A stretch of 64,000 nucleotides of DNA from Planctomycetota bacterium (GCA_022574595.1 JACZRS010000005.1:1-64000); one strand, 5' to 3'; counted from the stretch's first letter, positions 6,607-20,188 are shown. The notes: generated by a model from the sequence alone, not told the origin. A program made the numbers and translations.

Positions 6607-6963
6607 TCAGCCGGGTTTGTGGAGAATGTTAAAAGAGATTGAGCTTCCCTTGGGTGTCTTGATTGTCATCTCCAGCATCTTGGGTCCATCATTTACTTTG
6701 ACGCTCTCTGACAGTCGATACACACTCTTAGGTTTAGTCTGAGATGCTTCAATTAAATTGCCTTTAACTAAACGATTGACGTTTGCTCGAACTGTTGATA
6801 CCGGACTATTGAGCGAATTAGCAAGTGTTTTTATGTCAGAAGGCTGCCTAGCAAGAGCTCTGACGATCTCGCGTGAAGTTTGCCGTGCTACCAGGCGAAG
6901 AATTGTGCGCAGTGCATCTGCCTCTGGAATAGGTGAACGCCAGCCCTTTGGCCTCTTTCTCAT
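6607..6963 (-). CDS. Small winged-helix regulator A (ArsR/MarR-like)
   Basis: 118 residues from ATG 6963; a TTG at 6972 extends the frame but is a less likely start. Residues about 25-90 read as a winged helix (TSREIVRALARQPSDIKTLA, then STVRANVNRLVKGNLIEA, then a VYRL wing). After the DNA-binding part comes LEMTIKTPKGSSISFNIL, a short strand-like tail that recurs in the next two genes (pattern L-x-I-x-I-x-x-x-x-G-x-S), so the three look like paralogues. There is no clear Shine-Dalgarno. The fixed CAGT element of this region has its C at 7002, exactly 39 nt before the ATG. Function inferred: transcription factor, ligand unknown. Confidence 0.75.
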   Translation of the reverse strand: MRKRPKGWRSPIPEADALRTILRLVARQTSREIVRALARQPSDIKTLANSLNSPVSTVRANVNRLVKGNLIEASQTKPKSVYRLSESVKVNDGPKMLEMTIKTPKGSSISFNILHKPG

Positions 6964-6998
6964 TAAATGCAATCCGATTTAGACCCCGGCTTACTTTT

Positions 6999-7004
6999 AC
7001 TGAT
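6999..7004 (-). promoter_or_regulatory. -39 CAGT promoter-like element upstream of regulator A
   Basis: On the minus strand the sequence reads ATCAGTAAAAG with the C of CAGT at 7002, 39 nt before ATG 6963. The same offset is seen for the starts at 10430, 14634, 17621 and 17276. Confidence 0.5.
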
Positions 7005-7178
7005 CATTACAATGCTATTTAAGCCGATTAGGCTAAGATCTATTGGCATTGGCTGCACTTAAAAAGTTCAACCCGCCACCTTTAGCGCAAATATAACTAC
7101 CTGATTGAAGTTAATCAAATTGAACTAAATGTGCTTCTCTTATCCCCAATTTAGAATTGCTGCTTTGTTAAATTGATT

Positions 7179-7559
7179 TCAAAATTGCCATGATTCTTTA
7201 TGTATAACTACATCGTTCCTTAGCAATCTAAACAAAGCCGATTCGCCAGTAGGTAAACTGATCTCTAAGTTAATGAATTGACCATTTGGTGAGCCTCTCA
7301 CCCTCTTGGTTAAGTAATAGACCCTACTACGCCTTATGCGCTGCACATCAACTAGTCCGTTGGCTTTGAGCACACTAAGGTTGTGACTTACATGAGAAAT
7401 CTCTAATTCAAGTTCATCTGCAAGCTGAGTGACACCTCGCGATGCTGTAACAAGGCTTTTTAGAATCTCTAAGCGCACGCTCCCAGATACAACTGCCGAA
7501 AGTTCTGCAAGCGATCTACATGGCTTTACCTGTCCGTTGTAACGCTCTCGACCATTCAC
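7179..7559 (-). CDS. Small winged-helix regulator B (ArsR-like)
   Basis: 126 residues. The start is GTG at 7559, chosen because GGGAGGTGGA lies just upstream, the best ribosome binding site of the three regulators. Residues about 20-85 are a typical ArsR fold: SGSVRLEILKSLV, GVTQLADELELEISHVSHNLSVLKANGLVDV as the recognition region, and RRSRVYYLT as the wing. The C-terminus (INLEISLPTGESALFRLL) matches the tails of regulators A and C. There are no cysteine pairs of a metal sensor beyond a single Cys near residue 14, so a metal ligand is not supported. Likely a homodimeric repressor; target unknown. Confidence 0.8.
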   Translation of the reverse strand: MNGRERYNGQVKPCRSLAELSAVVSGSVRLEILKSLVTASRGVTQLADELELEISHVSHNLSVLKANGLVDVQRIRRSRVYYLTKRVRGSPNGQFINLEISLPTGESALFRLLRNDVVIHKESWQF

Positions 7560-7805
7560 GGCTCCACCTCCCTGCCGTAAATCTACCTCTCTTAGTTACT
7601 GCCGCATTGCAATACGCGGTTATTGCATATCACTTTTTCCTTGCGACCCTGAGCGTACCAGCATCATGCAAGAACATGCCTTCTGGTGCACACGCCCCTG
7701 TACGCCCTACATTTTACTGACTATGCTTCGTCTCCTTTTTATCTATAGTTCCCATTATTATACAAGCACTTAGTAGTTGTCATTCACATTTTTAGAGAGA
7801 ACTGA

Positions 7806-8318
7806 TTAATTTAATTGATGCATTGATTGCGTCAGTTTTTGTGTCAGTTTTTGTGTCAGTTTTTGTGTCAGTTTTTGTGTCAGTTTTTGTGTCAGTTTTT
7901 GTGTCAGTTTTGTGTCAGTTTTACTGACAGTTTTACTGACGGTTTTACTGACAGTTTTACTATGACCACAACTGTCAAGAGATCTATCAATGGTGATACA
8001 GGAGCCGTCACACGCTTCAATGCTAATCCTCAGCGATTGATCCAACCTTTCAACTGCAATAGACCTACCCAAAGTGTATATACGCTGCTTGGCATCCTTC
8101 TCATAGCGCACCCAACCTACTTTTCGCAGCCGGTTGAGACTTAAACTAACTGCAGGTAGATGTAATTCCAATGTATTAGCAAGTGATGTAACATCGCTTT
8201 GAACTGCCTTTGCTAAATATGCAATGATGTCCAGGCACTCGCCGCACGAGAGAATACGCACTGTGTCTGCCGTAGTTGCTGGCCATTGACGAGTTCTTCT
8301 TCCACGCCAACTTCGCAT
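7806..8318 (-). CDS. Winged-helix regulator C with repetitive C-terminal tail
   Basis: 170 residues; ATG at 8318 preceded by TAGGAGTG. Residues about 20-85 form a winged helix (SCGECLDIIAYLAKA, then TSLANTLELHLPAVSLSLNRLRKVGWV, then KQRIYTL). The LRISIEACDGSCITI tail matches regulators A and B. The last 55 or so residues are unlike them: about four VSKT units, then D, then about seven KLTQ units, made of 12-bp tandem repeats. The tail is basic and hydrophilic, so it may be a flexible nucleic-acid-binding extension. An AACTT-N5-AAGTT inverted repeat about 120 nt upstream, also present at the RHS promoter, suggests autoregulation and control of that locus. Confidence 0.75.
   Translation of the reverse strand: MRSWRGRRTRQWPATTADTVRILSCGECLDIIAYLAKAVQSDVTSLANTLELHLPAVSLSLNRLRKVGWVRYEKDAKQRIYTLGRSIAVERLDQSLRISIEACDGSCITIDRSLDSCGHSKTVSKTVSKTVSKTDTKLTQKLTQKLTQKLTQKLTQKLTQKLTQSMHQLN
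7830..7968 (-). repeat. 12-bp tandem repeats within regulator C
   Basis: On the minus strand there are about four GTCAGTAAAACT-type units followed by about seven CTGACACAAAAA units (KLTQ). One unit at the junction is 11 bp, so the phase differs between the two blocks (VSKT, then D, then TKLT). The two unit types are diverged copies of each other. Units of 12 bp keep the frame when copies are gained or lost, and the A5 runs invite slippage that would break the frame. Confidence 0.9.
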
Positions 8319-8651
8319 GAGACACTCCTAAAGCGGTATTCGATCTACTAGAAACGTAAATCGCGCATACTGCTTGGTTAAACAACGCAGCAGTATCGCA
8401 GCTAACCGCAGTAGATTTGCGGGAATCTTCTTACTTGAAACTTATTTCAAGTTATAAATGACGATTCTGAATCACTGGAAAGGTTTTTGACAGCTACTAC
8501 TCAAGAATTTCGTTAATCAAACTGCCACTTTAGCACTTTTAATAGTCGCTGATGGCTTTATCAAGTAGGTCTAACTATGAGTTGCACTACTGTGCTACTG
8601 ATATGGATCAGATTCACTATTGCTCTTTACCATATTCACCACTGGTAGCTG
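8319..8651. other. Non-coding spacer with operator copy 2
   Basis: Lies between regulator C (divergent promoter side) and the end of the integrase gene. No ORF is supportable. It holds the 37-bp operator-like copy at 8430-8466 and little else that I can recognise. Confidence 0.5.
8430..8466. promoter_or_regulatory. Putative operator, copy 2 (AACTT-N5-AAGTT)
   Basis: Near-duplicate of 5411-5447. Here the inverted repeat is longer: ACTTGAAA (8433-8440), CTTA, TTTCAAGT (8445-8452), a perfect 8-bp palindrome arm with a 4-bp spacer, followed by the identical AAATGACGATT. It lies about 115 nt upstream of the regulator C start at 8318, as expected for an autoregulated repressor. Confidence 0.6.
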
Positions 8652-9764
8652 TTAACTTGATGTCTGTTTATCTGATATCCTCTCGCGCTGTTGATGCATC
8701 TGTGCAATAGCTTTAGCATTGAGCCCAGCTCTATCGATGTATTGCTTTGGTACATCACTCGTAAGATCCCAGCCGTATTTTTTACAAATGTCAAAATGCG
8801 AAGCACCATTAGCAGCATCATAAGTTGCGCCACTATGCCTTAGTAAGTGTGGATAGACACGCTGATTAAGTGCACGTGCGCCCACTGATCCCACAGTTAT
8901 ACGTGCAGAGTCGTATGACATAGGAAATAATGCTGCTTCCGGATATGCGGTAGCAAGCGTACCGTCCTGGCTGATTTCCGGCTTTGCAGGATGACACTCA
9001 AGCCATCTAATTAAGTCTTTAATTGAATGCTTCTTACCAAGCCACACTGGACGAATGACTGTCTTTGACTCTGTAATTTGAAGGACTACAAAATCCCATT
9101 TGTTTTGCACATGATTTTGTTCTTGATCTCTTTTAACAAACTGCACTCCTTCAAGACGAATGCTTAAGTGCTCAGTAATTCGTGTTCCTGCCTCAAAGAG
9201 AGTTTGGATCAATGCTCGATCTCTGGGCGTGCGACAATAATCGCGCATACAATTAACATCTTCTTCAGTTAATGGTTGAACATGCTTCTTTGAATAATAT
9301 GTATCTATCCATTCAACAATTGATGGGTACTGACGATTATTTCCCCAAAGCCATTTGTAGAACTTCTTGATGTTCTTCTTAATGTTGGTTTTGTATTGTT
9401 CGCTGAGAACATCATTACAGCGTACTTGTCTGCCATCTTTCGTGCGCGCAAACTTCCTCGATCTGATGACATCATCATCTAAAGCTTCAATAAAATGCTC
9501 CATATCATCTTGTGTAAGAGTATCTAGGTCTTTCTTGCAATAATGAATCAGATGTTGCAGGTGCAAGAGATAGCAATTAAGGGTTTCGTAACCGATTTTC
9601 TTCTTTCGCTTGTTGATTACAGTCTTGCCGAGTTTGGCATCCCGGATGTATTTGGTCATTAACTGCTTGTTGTGATCGTTGATACTCGAATCAGTGTCAA
9701 ATTTCTTCTTTGCGGTTTCAAAGACTCTTTGTGAGTCGCGTATTCTTATGCGTAGGGATTCCAT
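8652..9764 (-). CDS. Tyrosine recombinase/integrase with archaeal-like C-terminus
   Basis: 370 residues, ATG at 9764. Residues about 50-140 are a SAM-like core-binding domain. The catalytic domain (about 165-365) shows R195 (EAGTRITEHL), H306-x-x-R309 (PHLLRHSGAT), W332 (KKYGWDLTSD) and the nucleophile Y342 (KQYIDRAG). The GW...S..P..YI...G signature, rather than the usual LGH...T..Y, is what I associate with archaeal integrases. It probably moved the 6.6-24.4 kb region; the truncated tRNA-Gly at 24381 is a candidate attachment site, though it is far away and no matching left end is visible. No Shine-Dalgarno; the CAGT element is 42 nt upstream. Confidence 0.88.
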   Translation of the reverse strand: MESLRIRIRDSQRVFETAKKKFDTDSSINDHNKQLMTKYIRDAKLGKTVINKRKKKIGYETLNCYLLHLQHLIHYCKKDLDTLTQDDMEHFIEALDDDVIRSRKFARTKDGRQVRCNDVLSEQYKTNIKKNIKKFYKWLWGNNRQYPSIVEWIDTYYSKKHVQPLTEEDVNCMRDYCRTPRDRALIQTLFEAGTRITEHLSIRLEGVQFVKRDQEQNHVQNKWDFVVLQITESKTVIRPVWLGKKHSIKDLIRWLECHPAKPEISQDGTLATAYPEAALFPMSYDSARITVGSVGARALNQRVYPHLLRHSGATYDAANGASHFDICKKYGWDLTSDVPKQYIDRAGLNAKAIAQMHQQRERISDKQTSS

Positions 9765-9798
9765 TATGAATTGAGCACAACCGTAAGGTTTATTAGGG

Positions 9799-9809
9799 AT
9801 TCACTGATT
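9799..9809 (-). promoter_or_regulatory. CAGT promoter-like element upstream of the integrase
   Basis: The minus strand reads AATCAGTGAAT from 9809 to 9799, then CCCTAATAAACC. The C of CAGT is 42 nt before ATG 9764. This is close to the 39 nt seen for the sister genes. Confidence 0.5.
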
Positions 9810-9852
9810 TCTAGAGCATGGGCGCTTCAGTGAAATGGTCGTGTAGTACAAT

Positions 9853-9962
9853 GGGCCATTTACCCAACTGTTCCACTATCTTTAAGCTTTACGTTTAGCG
9901 ACGATAAAAGTACTGATTCGCGGAACACTGCAGGCACAAAGGCCCATTTATACAACTGGTCC
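9853..9962 (+). repeat. Pair of 22-bp direct repeats
   Basis: GGGCCATTTACCCAACTG at 9853-9870 (then TTCC) and GGCCCATTTATACAACTG at 9941-9958 (then GTCC) agree at about 18 of 22 positions, with starts 88 bp apart. They lie next to the integrase promoter, a usual place for arm-type integrase sites or replication iterons. Confidence 0.5.
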
Positions 9963-10119
9963 CGTAGGACGCCGTTGTGTAGAAGCCAATGTTTGCTATT
10001 CCTCGAATCGGCAGTTTATCTCTCGTCGATATCTTTGGATTGTGCTTGCGCTCTAAAAGAAACAATCACTATATAAAGATTGTGGTGATGCAGTTTCTAT
10101 CTTTGCATTTTGTATGCAA

Positions 10120-10308
10120 TCACGGAATCCGACGTGGCATTTTCGGCCTGTCTTCGCTGTGATTGCAGATGTAGTCTTCTAATTCATCAGAGCGAACAAA
10201 AACCATATCCTCTAGAGATACGAATCCGTTTAGTCCTCTCACTCCTTTTTCTATGCCTATCACTTCATCTCCGATGTTGATCTCACGACGGCTCTGGGCG
10301 CTCTTCAT
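10120..10308 (-). CDS. Small protein of 62 residues, unknown function
   Basis: ATG at 10308 with a near-perfect GGAGGTGA 7 nt upstream, which is why I accept this short ORF. The sequence is mixed and charged with a beta-rich middle (IGDEVIGIEKGVRGLNGFVSLEDMVFV) that could be a small SH3-like barrel, and a Pro/Arg-rich end. No family recognised. A TTCAGTGAAAT element followed by TTTTTATATG lies on its strand with the C of CAGT at 10369, that is 61 nt before the ATG. If transcription starts 39 nt after that C, as proposed for its neighbours, the leader would be about 22 nt and contain exactly the ribosome binding site. Confidence 0.65.
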   Translation of the reverse strand: MKSAQSRREINIGDEVIGIEKGVRGLNGFVSLEDMVFVRSDELEDYICNHSEDRPKMPRRIP

Positions 10309-10360
10309 TTTTTTTCACCTCCATGTTGTTGAGCCAATTTCGCAAATACATATAAAAAGC

Positions 10361-10371
10361 ATTTCACTGAA
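10361..10371 (-). promoter_or_regulatory. CAGTGAAAT element upstream of the 62-residue gene
   Basis: The minus strand reads TTCAGTGAAAT then GCTTTTTATATG. It has the same CAGTGAAA core as upstream of 14634 and 17621, here followed by a clear TATA-like stretch. Confidence 0.45.
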
Positions 10372-10387
10372 CTGAGTAAGTTTGGCG

Positions 10388-10398
10388 AATCAGTTGAA
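10388..10398 (+). promoter_or_regulatory. -39 CAGT promoter-like element upstream of the 10430 operon
   Basis: CGAATCAGTTGAAGTTATTTAAG; the AATCAGT starts at 10388, exactly 42 nt before the ATG, putting the C of CAGT at -39. There is no strong Shine-Dalgarno between it and the ATG. Confidence 0.55.
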
Positions 10399-10429
10399 GT
10401 TATTTAAGTAATGTCCTCGTGGAAATTAC

Positions 10430-11005
10430 ATGAATAAATCAGATGTGTTTGAGTGGATGAAAAACAGCCAAAGACGACAGTTACTTCTTAAGAAAATTAA
10501 GCAGCCAATGACGGTCTCGCAGCTAGCTAATCAAACAAAGCTGCAAAGAGAAGCCTGTACCTTTTTGCTTTGGCAACTATCCGTATATTGTTTGGTGAAA
10601 TGCCTCAACAAGGAAGCTCGTGCATGTCGCTTATATTGGCTCACTGATTCAGGTAAAGATTGCCAGCGGCGATTACTTAGAGAAGAGTGCCTTCCCGCAA
10701 TTGAATATAACTTCCCGAGAGTAGATTGGAAACTATATGGGTGGGTGTGCTACCGTCATCGTTCAACAGTACTAAAGACAATGGTCATGCCAATGCAGCC
10801 TGCTGAAATCAAAAGACGAGCATTAGCGCAGAATCCACTTCTGCGTATGAACGTCAACAACGTGCTAGATGTGCTGCGAGATTTTCTAAGCAATGGACTT
10901 GTTCGAGTACTTTCCTTTTCAAAACAAAAACGCAGAATCTATGAATTGACTGAAGTGGGAAAAGCATTTCAAGAGCTTCTAAATCGCGCAGAGGTGATGG
11001 CATGA
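10430..11005 (+). CDS. Tandem winged-helix DNA-binding protein
   Basis: 191 residues with two winged-helix-like units. The first (about 12-80) reads NSQRRQLLLKKIKQPMTVSQLANQTKL, then YCLVKCLNKEARACRLYWLTDSGK. The second (about 110-185) reads RSTVLKTMVMPMQPAEIKRRALAQN, then VLRDFLSNGLVRVLSFSKQKRRIYELTEVGK. Both end in the YxLTxxG wing typical of such folds. Linker cysteines are present but not in a metal pattern. It starts an operon with two DNA methyltransferases 47 nt downstream, so control of methylase expression is a reasonable inference. ATG chosen; there is no obvious ribosome binding site, and the upstream CAGT element suggests a leaderless message. Confidence 0.75.
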   Translation: MNKSDVFEWMKNSQRRQLLLKKIKQPMTVSQLANQTKLQREACTFLLWQLSVYCLVKCLNKEARACRLYWLTDSGKDCQRRLLREECLPAIEYNFPRVDWKLYGWVCYRHRSTVLKTMVMPMQPAEIKRRALAQNPLLRMNVNNVLDVLRDFLSNGLVRVLSFSKQKRRIYELTEVGKAFQELLNRAEVMA

Positions 11006-11052
11006 GCTCATTCAACATAGCCACGAAAAGGGGAGGAACTTGTTGAGAAAAG

Positions 11053-12126
11053 ATGTTGGCAATAAACAAAATACACCGCATCAATGCCCTGGAAGGGCTG
11101 AAACAACTACCTGATGAATCCATCGACTGCGTGATGACCTCTCCTCCCTACTGGTCGATGCGAGATTACGGCATTAAGCCAACAAAATGGAGCGATGGCT
11201 CGAAGTCAGTTCTTGGCCTAGAGCATGAGATCCGAGACTACGTCAATCATCTGCTTAGTATCTTTGAGCAAGTTAAGCGCGTGCTCAAGAAATCAGGAAC
11301 AGTATGGGTAAACCTCGGCGACGTTTATGCAGGCAGTTGGGGCAACTATGCGCCCAACGGCGTTGTATCAAATCGACGGGCAACAGGCAAACACAAGAAG
11401 TGGCTGAGGCAAGGTATAGTCAATCCTCAATTCAGACCGCCATCATCTCGAAAGCAATTGGTAAGGAATAAATCTTTAAGTCTGATTCCCGAACAGTTCG
11501 TTTTAGGAATGGCTCAGCAAGGCTGGATTCTGCGCAACCGCATAGTTTGGCACAAACCCAATCACATGCCTTCAAGCGTTAAAGACAGATTCACTAATTC
11601 ATGGGAGCACTTGTTCTTATTCTCTAAATCCAAGAAGTACTACTTTGATCTCGATTCTGTAAGGGAGCCTCATCTGAGTTTGAAGAAAAATATGATCAAT
11701 CTGACCAGTTCTCCCAAGATTAGAGTGAGTCATCATCCAACTGGTAAACGCCTTCCACCCAAGCCTGGAGATCCACAAGCTTTCCATCCTAAAGGTAAAA
11801 ACCCAGGCGATTGCTGGGACATATCAACAAGATCTTTTAAGAGTGTAATGAAGGGTAAGGGCAATGGGCAGGGGGATGGGAATGAAACGGGGGATGCGCA
11901 CTTTGCTGTCTATCCCGAACAGCTGTGTGAGCGACCGATCAAAGCAGGTTGTCCGCGAGGAGGCATAATCCTCGATCCGTTCATGGGTTCAGGAACTACA
12001 GCGGTCGTGGCCAAGAAGCTTGGCAGGAGTTTCATTGGCCTTGAGCTCAATCCAGAGTACGTGAAAATGGCAAGACAAAGACTCAGGCACCGGGCACCGT
12101 CGAGAGGTCAAAGTGCCGCAGCCTGA
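11053..12126 (+). CDS. DNA methyltransferase, beta class, probably N4-cytosine
   Basis: 357 residues. Catalytic motif IV TSPPYWSMRDYG at residues 29-40 comes before the AdoMet motif DPFMGSGTT at about 308-316, the beta-class order. S/T-SPPY is the form most often seen in N4-cytosine enzymes. Between them lies the target-recognition region (about 90-260) with QFRPPSSRKQLVRNKSLSLIPEQF and VWHKPNHMPSSVKDRFTNSWEHLFLFSKSKKYYFD, standard for this family. It is second in the operon begun at 10430, and the next methyltransferase overlaps its end by 14 nt. I see no restriction endonuclease beside it; a solitary methylase or protection of a mobile element are the simplest roles. Confidence 0.92.
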   Translation: MLAINKIHRINALEGLKQLPDESIDCVMTSPPYWSMRDYGIKPTKWSDGSKSVLGLEHEIRDYVNHLLSIFEQVKRVLKKSGTVWVNLGDVYAGSWGNYAPNGVVSNRRATGKHKKWLRQGIVNPQFRPPSSRKQLVRNKSLSLIPEQFVLGMAQQGWILRNRIVWHKPNHMPSSVKDRFTNSWEHLFLFSKSKKYYFDLDSVREPHLSLKKNMINLTSSPKIRVSHHPTGKRLPPKPGDPQAFHPKGKNPGDCWDISTRSFKSVMKGKGNGQGDGNETGDAHFAVYPEQLCERPIKAGCPRGGIILDPFMGSGTTAVVAKKLGRSFIGLELNPEYVKMARQRLRHRAPSRGQSAAA

Positions 12127-13684
12127 GTACGAAGATGCTCGCGTCCGCCTCTACTGCGGCGATTGTATTGAAGTGATGCGTACGATGCCCAAGTACAGCG
12201 TCGATACGGTCATTACCGATCCGCCATACGGCTTGGAGTTCATGGGTAAGGAGTGGGACCGGCTCACGTGGAACGATGCGACAATCCATCGGGGCAAAGA
12301 ACGGCAGCATGGTGCGAACAAGACAAGTAACTATAATGGAATGCGGAACTGTCAAGGCATCAACAGAATTATGAGAGGCAGCAATGCGCAGGAATGGCAC
12401 CAGGGTTGGGCCACAGCCGCGTTCCGTGTCGCCAAGCCTGGCGCGATGCTACTCGCCTTCGGCGGCACCCGCACATTTCACCGTATGACTTGTGCCCTTG
12501 AGAACTCAGGCTGGGAGATTCGTGATTGCCTGATGTGGCTGTACGGATCTGGATTCCCGAAGTCGCTGAACATCAGCAAGGCGATTGATAGAACAGCGGG
12601 AGTTGAGCGGCCGCGGTACAGCAAACATCAGGGAAGTGGTTACGCGAAAGCGAACATCTTACAGGGCGCGCATTGCCGCAATACACCGGGATGGAATCTC
12701 TACAACAATGAACCTGTCACCGATGCTGCAAAACTCTGGCACGGTTACGGCACTGCGTTGAAGCCTGCATGGGAGCCGATCATCGTGGCGATGAAGCCAC
12801 TGGAAGGCACGTTCGTACAGAATGCCATTAAGTATGAGGTCGCGGGTTTGAATATCGACGGAGCCAGGGTGCCGATCTCGAACAACGAACCTGACAGTGG
12901 CGCGATGTATTACGCCAAGCGTGGCATGCCGATGCCCGAGAACAGACTGAGCTACTTTGGTGGCAAAAATGGGAAGGTGAAATGCATACCAATTGATGGT
13001 GGACGCTGGCCGGCAAATGTCATAGTTTCACATCACGAAGATTGTAAACCGGATGGCAGAAAGTGCGTAAAGAGTAATGGCCACTATCCAGGAAAACGTG
13101 GTAGAGGCGGCCTCAGTACATCTGGCCACAAAGGTCAGTCTGAGCTTGCTGAACATATGACTTGTTGGAAGAACGTTGAGAAATGGGACTGTCATCCTGA
13201 CTGCCCAGTACGATTGTTGGATAAGCAGGCTGGTCCACTATCTAAATCAGGCGATCCCAGGCGAAAGGATGGAGTCTTGAATTCTGGAGGCATGTTTGGG
13301 GCTGGCAAAGCAAAGCGTATTGTGCAAGTCTTTGGAGACATCGGTGGCGCATCCCGATTCTTCTACTGCACCAAGGCCAGTAAGAGGGAGCGTAACGCAG
13401 GATTGCCTACAGGCATGGTAAACGATCACCCAACTGTCAAGCCTCTAAGGCTGATGGAATACCTTTGCAAGCTGACGGGTACGCCAACGGGCGGACTGAT
13501 CCTTGATCCGTTCGCTGGCTCCGGAACGACTTTGCTTGCGGCCCGTAATGTGGGGCGCGAATGCATCGGCATAGAGAAGAATCCCGATTATGTCACACTC
13601 GCTCAAGAGAGACTGAAAGGAGGACGATACGCGAAGCCCTGTAGCAAACACTGTACCCAGTTCTGTATTAAGCACTCGAAATGA
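12113..13684 (+). CDS. Second DNA methyltransferase, phage-type, with Cys/His insertion
   Basis: 523 residues from GTG 12113 (GAGAGGT just upstream), overlapping the previous gene. Catalytic DPPY is at 36-39 and the AdoMet motif DPFAGSGTT at about 465-473, beta-class order. The middle carries the phrases GSGFPKSLNISKAID, GTALKPAWEPIIVAMKPLEGT and AGLNIDGARVP that I associate with phage and prophage methylases; DPPY allows N6-adenine or N4-cytosine. An insertion (about 305-370) has several Cys and His residues (HHEDC, DGRKC, CHPDCPVRLLD) and may bind zinc; more Cys/His lie at the end (CSKHCTQFC). The gene is visibly more GC-rich than its neighbours, hinting at a different source. Confidence 0.9.
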   Translation: MPQPEYEDARVRLYCGDCIEVMRTMPKYSVDTVITDPPYGLEFMGKEWDRLTWNDATIHRGKERQHGANKTSNYNGMRNCQGINRIMRGSNAQEWHQGWATAAFRVAKPGAMLLAFGGTRTFHRMTCALENSGWEIRDCLMWLYGSGFPKSLNISKAIDRTAGVERPRYSKHQGSGYAKANILQGAHCRNTPGWNLYNNEPVTDAAKLWHGYGTALKPAWEPIIVAMKPLEGTFVQNAIKYEVAGLNIDGARVPISNNEPDSGAMYYAKRGMPMPENRLSYFGGKNGKVKCIPIDGGRWPANVIVSHHEDCKPDGRKCVKSNGHYPGKRGRGGLSTSGHKGQSELAEHMTCWKNVEKWDCHPDCPVRLLDKQAGPLSKSGDPRRKDGVLNSGGMFGAGKAKRIVQVFGDIGGASRFFYCTKASKRERNAGLPTGMVNDHPTVKPLRLMEYLCKLTGTPTGGLILDPFAGSGTTLLAARNVGRECIGIEKNPDYVTLAQERLKGGRYAKPCSKHCTQFCIKHSK

Positions 13685-13687
13685 CCT

Positions 13688-14131
13688 ATGGCAGAGAAAG
13701 CTGTTATAGATAATATTTCTGATGGGCTAAAACCTAAGAAGGAATTCAAATTCGCTAAATCGCTGGAAGCTAAAGCAAGAGAGATTGCTCAGCACTACCC
13801 AGAGGATTTGGAGAACCCATCTCCCGCTTTTAATATTCAACGTGAAATTTCTCTTACTCTCGAAGGGATTCACCGATGGCAGAATTTGCAGGATGATCTT
13901 CATCACAGACTGGTTAAGTCGGAGTGTTATGTCGAAACAGAGCGAATGCAAATGGAACAGCGCATGCCTAGTTACTCACACTATAGATTTGCGGAGAGAC
14001 ATAAGTTCCAAAGGCAGCTGTCAAGGCTTGGAGAAGAAAAAAGAAAGCTGGATGTTGATCATGAAGAACGAATGCAAACAATGCATCAGCGATTGCTATT
14101 GTTACTCAACAAACATGCACACATATCTTGA
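13688..14131 (+). CDS. Coiled-coil protein, unknown function
   Basis: 147 residues; ATG 3 nt after the methyltransferase stop with no separate ribosome binding site, so probably translationally coupled. Mostly helical and charged; residues about 60-140 (HRWQNLQDDLHHRLVKSE, then FQRQLSRLGEEKRKLDVDHEERMQTMHQRLLLLL) look like two heptad-rich helices. No catalytic motif seen and no family recognised. Fourth gene of the winged-helix/methyltransferase operon; it might be a structural partner of the methylases. Confidence 0.65.
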   Translation: MAEKAVIDNISDGLKPKKEFKFAKSLEAKAREIAQHYPEDLENPSPAFNIQREISLTLEGIHRWQNLQDDLHHRLVKSECYVETERMQMEQRMPSYSHYRFAERHKFQRQLSRLGEEKRKLDVDHEERMQTMHQRLLLLLNKHAHIS

Positions 14132-14156
14132 TATTATTAGTCAAGGGATCCGCTTC

Positions 14157-14504
14157 TCAGACAACATCCACTATCACGATCTTGCCATCAATATAGCTAT
14201 AGCAAGCGGCAAGACCAAATGGCATCTCAAGTTCCCATAGATCGGTAATACCGTTATCGTTCCTGATTAGAGGAGGTATCTTAGCAGTAGGTACTTGCTT
14301 GCCCTCTAAATGATGGTCTTGAAGAAAGCTTTGCATCTGACAGAAGATATCCTTAACAGTTTCATTGTCCTCGTTGCCATTCAATCTACTGCGAAGCTGT
14401 TTTCCTGCACTCAGCATGACGCTATCTGCGACGACAATTTGCGTCTTATTAGCAGCCGATTGACACTGCTCTTTCTCAAGGCAGGTCTGTTTACATATCC
14501 TCAT
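14157..14504 (-). CDS. Small protein, RelE-like C-terminal pattern (weak)
   Basis: 115 residues from ATG 14504; the frame extends to a TTG at 14546, but the only good Shine-Dalgarno (GGAGGTG near 14523) lies inside that extension, 16 nt before the ATG. The N-terminal third is Cys/Gln-rich (CKQTCLEKEQC). The C-terminal part, VPTAKIPPLIRNDNGITDLW then ELEMPFGLAACYSYIDGKIVIVDVV, has the strand pattern of RelE/HigB-type toxins (LWEL...CYSYIDGKIVIVDV), but the basic catalytic residues are not obvious and no antitoxin is adjacent. A TATA-like CTATATAAG lies on its strand near 14562. Treat the toxin idea as low confidence. Confidence 0.5.
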   Translation of the reverse strand: MRICKQTCLEKEQCQSAANKTQIVVADSVMLSAGKQLRSRLNGNEDNETVKDIFCQMQSFLQDHHLEGKQVPTAKIPPLIRNDNGITDLWELEMPFGLAACYSYIDGKIVIVDVV

Positions 14505-14591
14505 TGAATTAATACTGCAACACCTCCGAGTCAATAACTCTGACAACGCTTATATAGTTATCGCCTCTTACGCAGTGCTTGAAACAGGCCG

Positions 14592-14602
14592 AATCAGTGA
14601 AA
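14592..14602 (+). promoter_or_regulatory. -39 CAGT promoter-like element upstream of the DUF2958 gene
   Basis: CGAATCAGTGAAACC with AATCAGT starting 42 nt before ATG 14634 (C of CAGT at -39), followed by TATTTGAAG. No Shine-Dalgarno before the ATG. Confidence 0.55.
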
Positions 14603-14633
14603 CCTATTTGAAGCTCATGTACTCCTTGATTGC

Positions 14634-14972
14634 ATGTGGAACGAACCAACTGAAGAAAGATTGATGCAATTGCCTAAACTGTATGCGACTGAAGAGACTA
14701 CTTGGCAAGATAAGATCATTCATGAGCATTTTTTCATCTTTGATTGTGATTGGTACATGGCAGAATACTCTCCGCAAGAAAGGAACTTCTTCGGATATGC
14801 AATTTTAAATGGCGATCTTAATAATTCAGAGTGGGGTTATATCAACTTTGATGAGCTAAGAGACATAAGAGTAAATGGTATTGAAATTGATAGGGACTTG
14901 TATTGGCGGGTTCGCCGAGCAGGAGAGGTGGAGAAGATTGTGGAAGCGTATCAATGGCCAGAATCATCGTAA
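14634..14972 (+). CDS. DUF2958 family protein
   Basis: 112 residues, full length for the family. The opening MWNEPTEERLMQLPKLYATE and the core FFIFDCDWYMAEYSPQERNFFGYAILNGDLNNSEWGYINFDEL are the recognisable DUF2958 signature. The family is small, cytoplasmic, of unknown function, and usually met in plasmids, conjugative elements and phages. This supports the mobile nature of the region. Monocistronic, with the CAGT element at -39 and no ribosome binding site. Confidence 0.85.
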   Translation: MWNEPTEERLMQLPKLYATEETTWQDKIIHEHFFIFDCDWYMAEYSPQERNFFGYAILNGDLNNSEWGYINFDELRDIRVNGIEIDRDLYWRVRRAGEVEKIVEAYQWPESS

Positions 14973-15171
14973 CGGCCAGAATTTAGTGTTTGTGAGATCA
15001 CCTCACATGATACAACCTTTGCCACTCAAACCAGTCTATAAGGCCAAGCTCTTTGTCCCAGCGTCAGTCACTATGAAGTCACTTGGTAACCAGATTTCAA
15101 AACTACTTGGACTGGCTCTCGGCGTCTTCACGGCCAATGAATGCACAGGAGCTTGAGATGCTTTTGAAACA

Positions 15172-15684
15172 TCAAACGGTCAATAGACCCAGTCTCTCGC
15201 GCCAGTCATCCAGTTGGTCGATGGAGCACAGGCTGGGCATCTCATCACCCCCATAGAGCAACCATGGCTTCTTAGCCATGAAATCAGCGCCCAGCATGAT
15301 AGCAGGCCGCTCTTCAACTCCTTCCGGATCAGCTGGAACTGGCCACTGCATAATCTTCGCATCGTGAACGAGACAGTTTAACTCGAACACATATCGTGGA
15401 ACCCCTTTCAATAACATCTTAATCTTCACAATCTCGTCGCCCGGTCGCTTCACAACATCTTTTGTGGAAGAGTAACCAAGGTGGCTACAATACCAATTAC
15501 CAGACCCACCAGGCACTGCAAATGAATCAGGCACCATGGTGAGAGGACAGCTCATATTGACGTAGCCCCACAACTGCAGATCTTTGGTACTTAGTACTAG
15601 GTTGTCTGGTGCTAGCACCTCCAACGCGAGTGCGTACATCGTTCCTCCTGAAGATATCGGTACTGCCTGCAAATCGAGCTGCAT
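15172..15684 (-). CDS. Unknown protein, third gene of the 17276-15172 operon
   Basis: 170 residues, ATG at 15684 with GGGAGG upstream. No recognised family. Predicted beta-rich, with VPISSGGTMYALALEVLAP near the start and AIMLGADFMAKKPWLLYGG near the end. The LGADF phrase resembles the C-terminal part of retropepsin-like folds, but there is no DTG/DSG catalytic triplet, so protease activity is not supported. It follows the 15703 gene by 18 nt and is presumably made with it and the 16611 gene. Confidence 0.6.
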   Translation of the reverse strand: MQLDLQAVPISSGGTMYALALEVLAPDNLVLSTKDLQLWGYVNMSCPLTMVPDSFAVPGGSGNWYCSHLGYSSTKDVVKRPGDEIVKIKMLLKGVPRYVFELNCLVHDAKIMQWPVPADPEGVEERPAIMLGADFMAKKPWLLYGGDEMPSLCSIDQLDDWRERLGLLTV

Positions 15685-15702
15685 AGTCCCGCGCCTCCCA
15701 CG

Positions 15703-16614
15703 CTAGCGATTGCCTTGTAGGCCTCTTCGCGCGACTTCCAACATCGAAATCGCCACTCTTTGCTCGCTCATTGACGTCTTCGCCCGTGCCGCATCCGGTC
15801 CTTTGTATCGAAACGGTTCGTAGTATTCATTGTTGCACTCTGCGATTACTTCAAGCGCAGTAGTAAGCCACCCCGCTGGCTGTTCTTCTCCGCTAAGCGC
15901 GTCAGGATACGCTGACCGCAACATTTCCGCCAGTTCATCATCAGCAGCAATCTGGTAGTCGTCGCTTGATCGAACCGATGCTAGGTCTTCCCGCATTCGG
16001 GAGTATGCCAAGATTAAGCGTGTAACCTCACTCTCTTTCGACGTAGCTTCATAAACGGCTCTCTCTAGCGGTCCATGAAGATTTGGTCCTTGGACAATTG
16101 CAACTGTCGTGTCCGACACCGCAAAGTCCAGCCAAGGCATCCCGTGCGTCGTAACGTACACATCCACTCTTGGCAACGCAACCAACGCCGGAATCAATTT
16201 CCTGATGGCTTGAATTTGGCTTCGTTTCACAAAGTGCCCAGTAACGAGTACGAAACGCATACCGGCACAGCACCGATTCTCCAGAGTCGAAAGAAAATCT
16301 ACGCCCCCATATATCCGTGTATCGAGTACGCCGTCTACAACGATCATCAATCGTTCTGTCTGTCGTACCTGTTGTTCGATCTTCTGTGCTACCTTTTCGT
16401 AAGTACCTTCCCCCCGACCTGCCGGTCTCTTTTGTAGGAGATCAAAGTGAACTGAGCCTGTGGCCCGCTTTCTAATCAAGCTATCAAACTTTAAATATAT
16501 TGCCTTCGACTCAGATGGTTCGATCTCAATCTTTTCTTCAGCCGAGCTGCTCGGAGGCTTACTCCCATTCCATTCATGCTGCGAGTTACGGGATTGGCTG
16601 TCTGATTGGCTCAC
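15703..16614 (-). CDS. Unknown protein with possible degenerate PLD-like domain
   Basis: 303 residues from GTG 16614 (GGAG upstream; the GTGA overlaps the previous stop). Residues 1-35 are polar and likely disordered. Residues about 75-190 alternate strands and helices (ERLMIVVDGVLDTRIY, then MRFVLVTGHF, then VDVYVTTHGMPWL, then VSDTTVAIVQGPNLHGPLE). The stretch H157...D168...G176-P-N178...E184 resembles the H-x-K-x4-D-x6-G-S-x-N motif of phospholipase D-type nucleases, but the lysine is missing and the spacing is off, so if related it may be inactive. The rest is helical. Middle gene of a three-gene operon that is divergent from a HerA-like ATPase. Confidence 0.6.
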   Translation of the reverse strand: MSQSDSQSRNSQHEWNGSKPPSSSAEEKIEIEPSESKAIYLKFDSLIRKRATGSVHFDLLQKRPAGRGEGTYEKVAQKIEQQVRQTERLMIVVDGVLDTRIYGGVDFLSTLENRCCAGMRFVLVTGHFVKRSQIQAIRKLIPALVALPRVDVYVTTHGMPWLDFAVSDTTVAIVQGPNLHGPLERAVYEATSKESEVTRLILAYSRMREDLASVRSSDDYQIAADDELAEMLRSAYPDALSGEEQPAGWLTTALEVIAECNNEYYEPFRYKGPDAARAKTSMSEQRVAISMLEVARRGLQGNR

Positions 16615-17276
16615 TTCTTTTTCTCCACAGATCGTACAACAGACATCAATGTCTTTGCGACTTTTTCTATATGTGCGTCCAACTCAGCGAGCTGGAGATG
16701 GCGGCGAAAATCAGAAATATGAAGGTGGATCTTTCCTGCTGGTTCGAGTCGTAAGGGGGCGATCCTTAACCTTGTATCTCTATTATTATCACGAAGTTCA
16801 CCCAAACCCAAGCTGTAGCCAACCGAAGATGGTTTCTTTTTAAGCCCGCAGAGCTTCTGGAGCTTATCCAGATCGCATAGAGCACCTAGTTTGACAGCCA
16901 CATCAAAATCCTGTGGAGCGTCGGCATCAATCTGCAGATCTGCTTCAATCGCAAACGTCTCTCCCTGTATGTCCCACCTGAATATAGTGCAAAGCTTTTT
17001 CAAGAAATCAAGCAATAGGTTTTTCGCCTCACTAATGGCAACTTGTCGCAGCTTCAAGTCAACGGCACCTGCTTCATAAACTACAAGACGTCCACCTGAA
17101 AATCCGAAAATGACAGCTTCGACACGCTCTGCTACGTCGATCCCACTTCCGACATATGAAGAAATGGAGGAGCACAGATCACTTCTATTAGTTGATACAG
17201 TAACTAAAGGCAGTCTATGATTCTCAAACTCAACTACCAGGTCGGTCAGGCGAGGTACCGGCTGTCGTTTGCCCAT
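16611..17276 (-). CDS. Unknown protein, first gene of the operon divergent from HerA
   Basis: 221 residues, ATG at 17276 with AAGGAT about 9 nt upstream. No family recognised. Starts with a strand-rich region (VVEFENHRLPLVTV, then RVEAVIFGFSGGRLVVYEAG); a central part alternates helix and strand, and it ends in a basic helix with EKKK. No catalytic motif, signal peptide or membrane segment seen. Overlaps the next gene by 4 nt (GTGA). The CAGT element of the region is exactly 39 nt upstream, here as CAGTCGCGAAGACGATAAAAG. Confidence 0.6.
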   Translation of the reverse strand: MGKRQPVPRLTDLVVEFENHRLPLVTVSTNRSDLCSSISSYVGSGIDVAERVEAVIFGFSGGRLVVYEAGAVDLKLRQVAISEAKNLLLDFLKKLCTIFRWDIQGETFAIEADLQIDADAPQDFDVAVKLGALCDLDKLQKLCGLKKKPSSVGYSLGLGELRDNNRDTRLRIAPLRLEPAGKIHLHISDFRRHLQLAELDAHIEKVAKTLMSVVRSVEKKK

Positions 17277-17620
17277 AAGCGAGATCCTTACATACTTTTA
17301 TCGTCTTCGCGACTGTCCGAACTCTAGTTCCTTGGCATAAGGCACTCTTAGCAAGTGTATCAAATGCAGCCGTGGTTACCTCACCTCATCAAAACTCTTC
17401 CACTCGAACCAATCCCTGAGCACAATCTCCCCTGCCCCATCATCAATATCTCGAACGTCACCATAGCACCCAGGCTCCTCGATGGCGAGTATAAGCTGAC
17501 GGTAACTCTCATAGAGCAAGAGAGTTAGAAAAGATCGTTGAGGCATACGGGGATAGTGACTAAGCCAATTGATACCCGAATCAGTGAAATCCCTAAAGAT
17601 ATGTTGTCATTTTGCAAAGT
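17277..17620. promoter_or_regulatory. Divergent promoter region between the unknown operon and HerA
   Basis: 344 bp, no ORF. Minus strand: CAGT with its C at 17315, then GACGATAAAAGTA (17305-17293), serving the 17276 operon. Plus strand: CGAATCAGTGAAATCCC at 17577-17593, serving 17621. The same kind of element at the same distance on both sides suggests shared control. Confidence 0.5.
17579..17589 (+). promoter_or_regulatory. -39 CAGT promoter-like element upstream of HerA
   Basis: AATCAGTGAAA starting 42 nt before ATG 17621 (C of CAGT at -39), followed by TCCCTAAAGATATG. There is no ribosome binding site before the ATG. Confidence 0.55.
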
Positions 17621-19615
17621 ATGGACATTGAGAAAATCGCCCGAAAGCTAGAGCCTCTGATGCCAGAAAAAGTTCAAAGCTGGCTTCGAGCTAGAGACAC
17701 TGCTGATCCTGATCTCAAATCGCTAATCGATAAACAGATTATGTTTACCGCCCACAAAGTCTTTGGAGACTTCCGGCGGAAAATACTTCTGTCGTTGCCA
17801 ACTGAAAAGAAAGCCAAGGGATCAATTCATCTTGGCAATATTGTCTACGATCAAGAGAAATGGCCTTTGGGTATTTATCCTAGAGAGCTACTTCAAAACC
17901 TGGCAATCTTCGGTAGGTCTGGAGCAGGAAAGACCAATGTGACTTTTCACATTCTTGAGCAGCTAGTTGAGAAGAAGATTCCCTGGCTGTTCCTGGATTG
18001 GAAACGCACAGCTAGACATTTAATTCCTTTGCTCACTCATAAAGTCAACGTCTTCACTCCCGGTCGATCACTATCCCCCTTTCCATTTAATCCATTCATT
18101 GTGCCGCCAGGGTTAGAACCCAAGGTGTATATCAATCTCCTTGTCGATGTGTTAGCGACAGCATTCACACTTGGCGATGGAGCCAAGAGTATTCTGCAGA
18201 GAGCAATCAAGTCTTGTTATGACCAAGGTAATCACGCACCAATAGTATTAGATGTACTAGCTGAGGTGAATAAAATCCCTGACAAAGAAAGAGTTAGAGG
18301 GTGGAAGATATCCACGGTGAGAGCGCTTGAAAGTGTGGAATTCGCAGAGTTGACCTCTTGTGATAGAAAAACTCAGGAAACATTTACTAAATCACTTGTT
18401 AAGCGCAACACCATCGTTGAATTAGACGGATTATCCAGTGGATCCAAGAAGTTTCTAATTCCCATGCTCTGTCTTTGGCTTTATCAAGCAAAGTTAGGAG
18501 CACCCGAACGCGAGCAGCTTTCATTTGTCTGTGTAGTAGAAGAAGCTCACCATGTGCTTTACCGACATCAGAGCAGGTCGAGCGAATCAGTGATGGACAT
18601 GTTACTTCGTCAATGCCGTGAGATAGGTATTGGAATGATCGTCGTTGACCAACACCCGCATCTGACTTCCTCTGCAGCTCTTGGCAATACCTACACCTCA
18701 ATCTGCCTAAATCTTAAAGACCCTAGTGACATTAATCGGGCAGCCGGGCTGTCTCTGCTAACTGAAGACGAAAAACAGTACTTCAGTTTACTTCCTGTCG
18801 GTCAGGGAATAGTAAAACTCCAGGATAGATGGAGAAGACCAATACTTGTGAAATTTCCTCTTGTGAGAATTAAGAAAGGTCTTGTAACAGATGCAGTGCT
18901 AAAGGAGTATTTGGATGGTAATACGACGCTTTCGGGGCTTAGGAGTCTTCTAAGGCAAGAAATTGGGGGTTTGGGAGGGTTTCGGATGTCAGTTGGACCT
19001 CTTAATGAGGATGAAGTAGCGTTTATCAATGACACGCTACTTCATCAAGATGATGGGGTGAGCCGGAGGTACAAGAGGCTTGGGTGGAGTGCTGACAAAG
19101 GCAACAGGACCAAGAACGAACTCCTTAACGGTGGTGTGATTGAGGATACTCTTGTCACAGTCGGCAGAACGCGAAAGCTCGTCGTTAGAATCACCAAAGA
19201 GGCAAGAGGGCTTTTTGGAATCACGGGACAGCAAGTTGATCGAGCATCGCTTACACATACTTTCTGGCAGCAGTATTACAGCAAGAAGTTTGTAGAACTG
19301 GGTTACAAAGTTGCAATTGAGGCACCTAATCAACTCGGAAGAACGGATATATTGGCAACGAAAGCGTCCAAACGTATCGCTATTGAGATCGAAACCGGCA
19401 AGAGCGATGTCGTTAAGAATGTCAAGCAGAACTTGCTTGCCAAGCACTCGAAAATAATCGTGGTTGCAACGGATGAGGCTGCCTTGAGAAAAGTAGAGCG
19501 AGAGTTGGCTAGAGTTGGTTTGTTGATTCCGTCGAGAGTTGATGTGGTTTTGCGGGATGGGCTTGGACGCTACGGCTCACCTTGCAGTACGATTCTCAAA
19601 CACAGCGGCGAATAA
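17621..19615 (+). CDS. HerA-like ATPase with C-terminal nuclease-like domain
   Basis: 664 residues; ATG 17621 preferred over TTG 17612. Walker A GRSGAGKT is at 98-105, followed by LFLDWKRTARHLIPLL. Walker B-like SFVCVVEEAHHVL is near 300, followed by RQCREIGIGMIVVDQHPHLTSS. This is the HerA/VirB4/FtsK-type hexameric motor layout. The last 100 or so residues (KKFVELGYKVAIEAPNQLGR, then TDILATKASKRIAIEIETGKS) have D and E-x-E...K in a strand context like PD-(D/E)xK nucleases. Such a fusion suggests a DNA motor that also binds or cuts DNA. HerA relatives pair with SIR2 or DUF4297 proteins in known anti-phage systems. The divergent three-gene operon is the natural partner here. No ribosome binding site; CAGT element at -39. 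Confidence 0.82.
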   Translation: MDIEKIARKLEPLMPEKVQSWLRARDTADPDLKSLIDKQIMFTAHKVFGDFRRKILLSLPTEKKAKGSIHLGNIVYDQEKWPLGIYPRELLQNLAIFGRSGAGKTNVTFHILEQLVEKKIPWLFLDWKRTARHLIPLLTHKVNVFTPGRSLSPFPFNPFIVPPGLEPKVYINLLVDVLATAFTLGDGAKSILQRAIKSCYDQGNHAPIVLDVLAEVNKIPDKERVRGWKISTVRALESVEFAELTSCDRKTQETFTKSLVKRNTIVELDGLSSGSKKFLIPMLCLWLYQAKLGAPEREQLSFVCVVEEAHHVLYRHQSRSSESVMDMLLRQCREIGIGMIVVDQHPHLTSSAALGNTYTSICLNLKDPSDINRAAGLSLLTEDEKQYFSLLPVGQGIVKLQDRWRRPILVKFPLVRIKKGLVTDAVLKEYLDGNTTLSGLRSLLRQEIGGLGGFRMSVGPLNEDEVAFINDTLLHQDDGVSRRYKRLGWSADKGNRTKNELLNGGVIEDTLVTVGRTRKLVVRITKEARGLFGITGQQVDRASLTHTFWQQYYSKKFVELGYKVAIEAPNQLGRTDILATKASKRIAIEIETGKSDVVKNVKQNLLAKHSKIIVVATDEAALRKVERELARVGLLIPSRVDVVLRDGLGRYGSPCSTILKHSGE

Positions 19616-20188
19616 CCTCATAAATATACAAGCACCACCAAAAAGAACATAATGGGCCGCATCAGTATTGCTACGAGTGCGTTATGCTCGAATCCCTATC
19701 TGAATCAGACGATGATTTCTAACTATTTTATGACATAGCTTGACCAAAACACTCTCGTCGCCTTTTTTTCGCATCTCGATTCACCAGGGCTGTCTCCGGG
19801 TTGCCGGACCTAATCTATCCAACATATTTAAAAGCTAACTCCCGCCCCGCCAGCTTGCTAATTTATGGATCGTGTCTAACAATCCCATTTTTTCAGTCTT
19901 GGGACACAATACACCTACGACCCGCGATATGTGATTTGTGATCGTACATCACCCTCATAACGTCGAAAACGACTCCTTCCGCCGGTTCTTACCATTTTTC
20001 CTACCATCTTCTTACCTTATTTATTACACCTTTTCTTACCATTCTCATACCCGCCCCCTTTTCTTCTCTCCGATCCAAGTTGACTGAAGCTAGCTGTTAA
20101 GCTTAAGATGGCAGGCAACAAATGGTGTGAGAACGATTGCGTTGCGATCAACTCGCTATACCATCTAAGATACTACGGGAGTAAAAGT
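19616..20188. other. Long intergenic stretch with CTTACC repeats
   Basis: Between HerA and the EEP gene. No supportable ORF. Near 19985-20043 the plus strand is pyrimidine-rich, with about four copies of a TTCTTACCATT-like word (19985, 19998, 20009, 20033). A fifth TTCTTACC lies after the EEP gene at 21132. Function unknown; it could mark cassette boundaries or be a binding-site cluster. Confidence 0.45.

Follow-up and report, generated by a model that had tools for sequence, protein, structure and literature searches.

A conserved two-box element at a fixed distance from the start codons of a planctomycete mobile-element family, probably a leaderless-type promoter

In this study, a two-box DNA element was characterised in the first 64,000 nucleotides (nt) of contig C21 (C21:1-64000, hereafter the window) from a Planctomycetota bacterium genome of 4.09 Mb. 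The accessory region in which it occurs is an integrative mobile element in a Phycisphaerae-type (Planctomycetota) genome, with relatives throughout the same class. Judged by its sequence conservation, the two-box element is very probably a conserved promoter of this planctomycete mobile-element family, with transcription starting at or next to the ATG. In a logo made from 44 non-redundant cases in which the C of CRGT lies 39 nt before the start codon (distance d=39), the consensus was CAAATCRGTTSAA at -44 to -32 (box1) and TWTWAA at -27 to -22 (box2). The geometry of the boxes, at about 22 to 44 bases before the start codon, is archaeal-like, and the machinery available to read them, judged from gene content, is not archaeal. 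The whole favoured account, a leaderless-type family promoter with predicted recruitment of the host RNA polymerase by the mobile-element protein HTH4, lies in our estimate slightly on the probable side.

Three copies in the window lie on the plus strand, with the C of CAGT 39 nt ahead of an ATG, and a fourth copy, of the form CAGTGAA, lies on the minus strand 42 nt ahead of the ATG of the integrase gene. An independent test was made with a weight matrix built from relatives alone, with no window sequence in training, and this matrix gave the scores listed below; no other site in 8400-19700 scored at least 10.

10386-10408, plus strand: two-box element of gene 10430 (box1 10386-10398, CGAATCAGTTGAA; box2 10403-10408, TTTAAG; C at 10391, d=39, score 21.7).
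14590-14612, plus strand: two-box element of gene 14634 (box1 14590-14602; box2 14607-14612, TTTGAA; C at 14595, d=39, score 14.5).
17577-17599, plus strand: two-box element of gene 17621 (box1 17577-17589; box2 17594-17599, TAAAGA; C at 17582, d=39, score 10.6).
9789-9811, minus strand: two-box element of the integrase gene, ATG at 9764 (box1 9811-9799; box2 9794-9789, AATAAA; C at 9806, d=42, score 10.0).
10352-10374, minus strand: probable weak element of gene 10308 (CAGTGAAATGCTTTTTATATG; C at 10369, d=61, score 6.8, the best upstream of this gene).

The first four sites bear out a preliminary description of the window, which had placed a C 39 nt before the starts at 10430, 14634 and 17621 and 42 nt before the integrase start. 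Its placement of an element 61 nt before gene 10308 was right in distance, but the score there is marginal. Transcription of gene 10308 is predicted to start near 10330, probably followed by a leader with a Shine-Dalgarno sequence, and in homologues of this gene (p62) the distance of the element is 39 or 63-65. The copies that had been assigned to 6963 and 17276 did not survive. CAGT occurs at exactly -39 in 5 of 15 starts of the region, a count reached in 1 of 2000 shuffles of the upstream regions; these two of the five are chance occurrences, which have only the four letters in common with the element, score -25.2 and -16.5, and were rejected as copies.

The most over-represented 9-mer in 8400-19700 is CGAATCAGT, with 6 copies against 0.13 expected and one copy in the remaining window. 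Half of the six copies lie away from gene starts, at 9687 (plus), 9920 (minus) and 18583 (plus). A repeat or recombination site was considered for these six copies and rejected, since relatives conserve the whole two-box block at a fixed distance from the start. The exact CGAATCAGTGAAA form is peculiar to the window, and exact-motif searches of relatives gave nothing at first; the wider consensus came to light by reading the upstream regions of HTH4 homologues, which in many genomes of the class carry (C)AAATCRGTTSAA followed by an AT-rich box.

The distance between this block and the start codon was conserved. Among a first set of 29 leaderless cases, the ATG lay 39 nt from the C in 20, 40 nt in 8 and 42 nt in 1. 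In a first clean test, 735 kb of related regions were scanned, at a threshold of at least 14, with a matrix that covered box1 and box2 and left out every column near the ATG. There were 54 untrained matches. An ATG stood at exactly +39 in 25 of them, whereas other positions, 40 left aside, averaged 1.2 and did not exceed 4; the genes behind these matches include HTH4, p62, p147, integrases, MT1, MT2, HerA and ArdC-like genes. In a second clean test, a matrix was made from 31 promoters of other genes, with HTH4 genes and window sequence left out of training, and it matched 28 of 33 HTH4 genes, 15 at d=39/40 and most others at 96-112. Moreover, the spacing was kept even though the proteins are only 35-47% identical and host GC ranges from 45 to 65%. 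The search for related elements in other genomes, proposed in the preliminary description, was thus fruitful: class relatives hold a conserved two-box element at d=39/40.

The element was confined to these mobile elements at the level of the sequences compared. In 400 kb of the window's genome, 19 sites scored at least 10, against 30 in shuffled sequence, and none lay 39-40 nt before an open reading frame of at least 50 codons. None of 185 ordinary host genes had the element upstream (best score 11.3, at d=81), which agrees with the earlier observation that housekeeping starts lack it. Pattern searches of the host genome returned 15 exact copies of AATCAGTGAA and 47 of CGAATCAGT; a scan of motif against start distance had been suggested in the preliminary description, and the inspected copies beyond the mobile element were within genes or at other distances. 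Furthermore, the 185 upstream regions had no excess of TTGACA/TATAAT over shuffles, a Shine-Dalgarno excess being the only signal.

Comparisons with other genomes gave a similar separation. Searches of 101 same-family genomes, reduced to 97-99 with the window's own and G560 left out, gave 21 matches to box1 plus ATG, none with box2, whereas a cassette set of 30 genomes picked for cassette genes gave 16 of 36 with box2, and the scores were bimodal. Across 397 genomes of the class, with two-box matches outside the cassette left aside, a strict two-box match was present in 8 of 19 HTH4 genomes and in 8 of 378 others (Fisher 6e-8); here the window's genome was put among the 11 HTH4 genomes without a match, its sole strict match being outside the mobile element (C7). 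Where HTH4 is lacking, some of the strict matches are unrelated or have no explanation. Another repeated block, gcaaatCRGTTCAATYGTTTAATARmAACnTTTTCTCG, was found at L233, L234 and L240 (G889, G936); it fits both boxes, but its conservation runs on past them, it has no start at 39, and it is unexplained.

Known bacterial promoters offer only partial parallels to the logo. Downstream of box2, a weak CnT occupies -12 to -10 (C-12 in 27 of 44 cases, T-10 in 32), and C-1 (25 of 44) precedes A+1 of the ATG. Box1 holds about 16 bits of information, a figure inflated by selection, box2 about 5 and the -10 part about 1. Leaderless sigma70 promoters with TANNNT about 12 bp before the start are known from Actinobacteria and Deinococcus. 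The present element resembles them in being predicted leaderless and in having no Shine-Dalgarno, but its blocks occupy -44 to -32 and -27 to -22, and the logo has no TANNNT at -12, where only C-12 and T-10 are weakly conserved. Promoters of the sigma54 type have GG at -25/-24 and GC at -13/-12; in the logo, -25/-24 are A/T and G-13 is not conserved. Phage and integrative and conjugative element promoters that depend on an activator are alike in that an element-specific site takes the place of the -35 at a fixed distance and coordinates the genes of the element; they differ from the present case, which has no recognisable sigma70 -10, has a fixed leaderless geometry and was seen only in these planctomycete elements.

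An alternative sigma factor of the host, similar to those of extracytoplasmic function, could nevertheless be imagined to read the site, with box1 as an unusual -35, the CnT as the -10, transcription start at the ATG and box2 as a helper tract within the spacer. C-12, T-10 and C-1/A+1 do sit where a bacterial -10 and start belong. However, the -10 part carries about one bit against the much larger, selection-inflated content of box1 and that of box2, the spacing is long, and the two-box site is almost confined to genomes with the mobile element and is lacking upstream of the 185 ordinary genes. We consider this explanation unlikely.

The site could also be an operator only, at which HTH4 would repress an ordinary sigma70 promoter whose -10 would be box2 and whose leader would be 15 nt long. 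Box2 is AT-rich, and the site lies ahead of a winged-helix gene that has two methyltransferase genes next to it and serves the same operon, comparable to the control of restriction-modification genes by C-proteins. In C-protein systems, too, a site precedes a small regulator gene with methyltransferase genes adjoining, and leaderless transcripts of the regulator are known. In contrast to C-protein promoters, the present sites have no inverted C-boxes and also stand before integrase, HerA and ArdC-like genes, and HTH4 has two winged helices in place of the C-protein helix-turn-helix, winged-helix families being the only ones it matched. Against the operator stand the A at the final position of box2 in 38 of 44 cases, where a sigma70 -10 needs T, and the absence from the logo of a conserved -35 upstream. 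Moreover, a start at -15 leaves unaccounted for both the exact 39-nt distance to the ATG and the conservation of leadered genes from C+39. A mere operator is thus improbable. The preliminary description had named an operator of a local regulator as its alternative; this is compatible with the preferred promoter explanation, which has taken in the site of a local regulator.

The archaeal reading stood in the preliminary description as an archaeal-type leaderless promoter. In archaea the TATA box is expected some 30 to 23 nt ahead of the start point, with a purine-rich B recognition element (BRE) immediately 5'. Counted from the predicted start, the element has a TATA-like TWTWAA at -27 to -22; SAA at -34 to -32 suits a purine-rich BRE, yet it lies within the longer CAAATCRGTTSAA block and 4 nt away from box2. 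As in archaeal leaderless promoters, two boxes adjoin, the AT-rich second one lies near -25, the ATG is the predicted first base and there is no Shine-Dalgarno; unlike them, the element has the added CRGT, a box2 centred near -24.5, a weak CnT at -12 to -10 and a bacterial host without TBP and TFB. It has been reported that the TA signal of archaeal leaderless genes precedes the start by about 30 bp, with TANNNT at about 12 bp in bacteria (PMC3160421), and that haloarchaeal promoters have CGAAA as BRE and TTWT as TATA (PMC4983044). A genuine archaeal promoter (BRE plus TATA, leaderless), derived from an archaeal mobile element and either read by TBP/TFB or left as a non-functional relic, is in keeping with the position and content of the boxes in these reports. 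It also draws on the lean of MT1 to archaeal viruses, its closest viral relatives, and on the best NCBIfam models of the integrase (XerA_Arch) and HerA (CedD), which are archaeal but below cut-offs. We take these leanings as hints of ancestry, not proof.

However, TFIIB/TFB (PF00382) and TBP (PF00352) were not found in the window's genome, control genomes being positive, and thus archaeal machinery cannot read the element there. TFB was not found in 29 of 30 genomes searched, and the sole case (G895:C213, L206) is a contig of 34% GC with archaeal-looking genes within a planctomycete metagenome-assembled genome (MAG); as this contig looks like contamination, its TFB was rejected as a reader. 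Furthermore, a relic would not hold its spacing across proteins and hosts so diverged, and CRGT, a conserved part of box1, is not archaeal. The reading by TBP/TFB in this host is refuted, and the archaeal explanation as a whole is very improbable. From the earlier claim, the ATG as predicted +1, the archaeal-type spacing and the restriction to the mobile region found support, given the conserved spacing, the ordinary genes without the element and the conservation of leadered genes at the same start; archaeal function did not.

Under the favoured promoter explanation, box1 and box2 would set initiation 39-40 nt past the C of CRGT. The initiating base would be the A of the ATG in most genes of the mobile element, giving a leaderless mRNA, and the remaining genes would use the same start point but have a leader with a Shine-Dalgarno after it. 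The reader would be a factor encoded by the mobile element, with HTH4 as the best candidate; its two different winged-helix domains may each touch one box of the asymmetric site. HTH4 would then recruit the RNA polymerase of the host to a weak core, made up of CnT at -12 to -10 and C-1/A+1. The single regulon driven in this way would contain the HTH4 gene itself, p62, the integrase, HerA and cargo genes. Start at the predicted base, and binding and activation by HTH4, are what we infer from these comparisons. HTH4 has two dissimilar winged-helix domains and matches winged-helix families only, and it is the only evident DNA-binding regulator in the compact version of G847 (L213); the G560 operon has no adjacent HTH4, but one sits about 4 kb away. 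Whether HTH4 is the reader appears to us evenly balanced. A bolder version, in which the mobile elements bring along a self-contained initiation system, in effect not of the sigma type, and a winged-helix factor of the mobile element, perhaps with a zinc-ribbon-like p62, positions the bacterial RNA polymerase at the ATG of a two-box TATA-like promoter with archaeal spacing, possibly archaeal-derived and adapted to bacteria, would be rather unlikely.

Several points weigh against the favoured explanation. The promoter set was partly chosen for an ATG at 39/40, and only the two clean tests are free of such choice. The CnT at -12 to -10 leaves scope for a sigma factor. The structural model of HTH4, whose pLDDT of 63 means only medium confidence, looks like winged helices of the ordinary PadR/F-93 type, with no match at E<0.001. 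Finally, G919, an incomplete MAG counted among the 378 others of the class comparison, has a HerA of the family and an ArdC-like gene that carry the element (d=39), yet no HTH4 was found in it.

In the leadered class of HTH4 genes, conservation picks up again at C+39/40 with ACCAATTGG, so that the predicted start is the same base as in the leaderless genes. Eight leadered HTH4 homologues (L142, L146, L148, L149, L150, L151, L152 and L170) have a structured leader in common, composed of ACCAATTGG, a GGATC..GATCC hairpin, AGGAGG and a TTAGCCGGCTAA hairpin immediately before the GTG, TTG or ATG start; two-sided changes were observed in 7 of 16 predicted pairs. The leader may possibly serve translational autoregulation. 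The ATG at 39/40 begins a short reading frame before the main start in one methyltransferase gene and in three copies of a 130-aa gene (L191, L201, L190, L189), the main start lying 74-98 nt from the element. The stop of the short frame overlaps the main start (ATGA) in L191 and L201, which suggests a leaderless upstream open reading frame coupled to the gene.

The mobile element comprises an integrase, p62, HTH4, two DNA methyltransferases, p147 and a HerA/DUF87 ATPase, which in the window are arranged as follows.

8652-9764, minus strand: integrase (tyrosine recombinase), start ATG 9764.
10120-10308, minus strand: p62, small protein linked to HTH4.
10430-11005, plus strand: HTH4, 191 aa, two winged-helix domains, candidate reader of the element, with homologues throughout the class.
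11053-12126, plus strand: MT1, DNA methyltransferase (N6_N4_Mtase).
12113-13684, plus strand: MT2, DNA methyltransferase (N6_N4_Mtase).
13688-14131, plus strand: p147, conserved core gene, function not assigned, adjoining the HerA-like gene in relatives.
14634-14972, plus strand: DUF2958-like protein, accessory gene (match under the Pfam cut-off).
17621-19615, plus strand: HerA/DUF87-like ATPase, core gene of the element family.

The order HTH4-MT1-MT2-p147-HerA is retained, as an operon, in related genomes; the window copy differs in that five other genes separate p147 from HerA, which has its own copy of the two-box element. Homologues of p62 have zinc-ribbon-like CxxC/CxxxC cysteines, which the window p62 has lost. 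The compact version in G847, of about 4.5 kb, holds integrase, p62, HTH4, p147 and HerA. Among the matches listed, the relatives bearing names (three loci) are Phycisphaerae and Planctomycetota MAGs, and the contig of a relative labelled 'Actinomycetes' is identical to a contig of a genome from the class of the window's genome. The mobile elements are carried on bacterial contigs of great length, such as 5.7 Mb (G397) and 3.9 Mb (G127), and their GC tracks that of the host, so that contamination is no explanation for them. A viral contig collection contained no relatives, and plasmids and phages contained no HTH4 match.

Other features of the window were also recorded. Copies of AAGARRCRATMACTATATAARGMTTGT, 27 nt long and 74% alike, lie at 10057-10083 (plus) and 14543-14569 (minus); the former is an ACAATC...GATTGT dyad around TATATA, and the latter is upstream of gene 14157-14504. 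Three small winged-helix genes in a row at 6607-8318 gave weak archaeal and ArsR-type family matches, and none has the two-box element. Within 7806-7970, a 12-nt tandem repeat (GTGTCAGTTTTT) encodes the TQKL/TVSK repeat tail of a winged-helix protein; it is rich in CAGT and unrelated to the element. Directly outside the mobile element, 21140-23836 encodes a TrlF-family ATPase (NCBIfam, above cut-off), TrlF being a defence-associated family.

In conclusion, if transcription starts as predicted, the two-box element would represent a class of conserved bacterial promoters that have archaeal geometry, lack a recognised -10 and belong to one mobile-element family of a phylum whose promoters are, to our knowledge, poorly known. 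It would be a compact case of a mobile element taking over or bypassing sigma-dependent initiation, with leaderless expression as an element-specific trait, and the two-box signature may provide a simple means of finding these elements.

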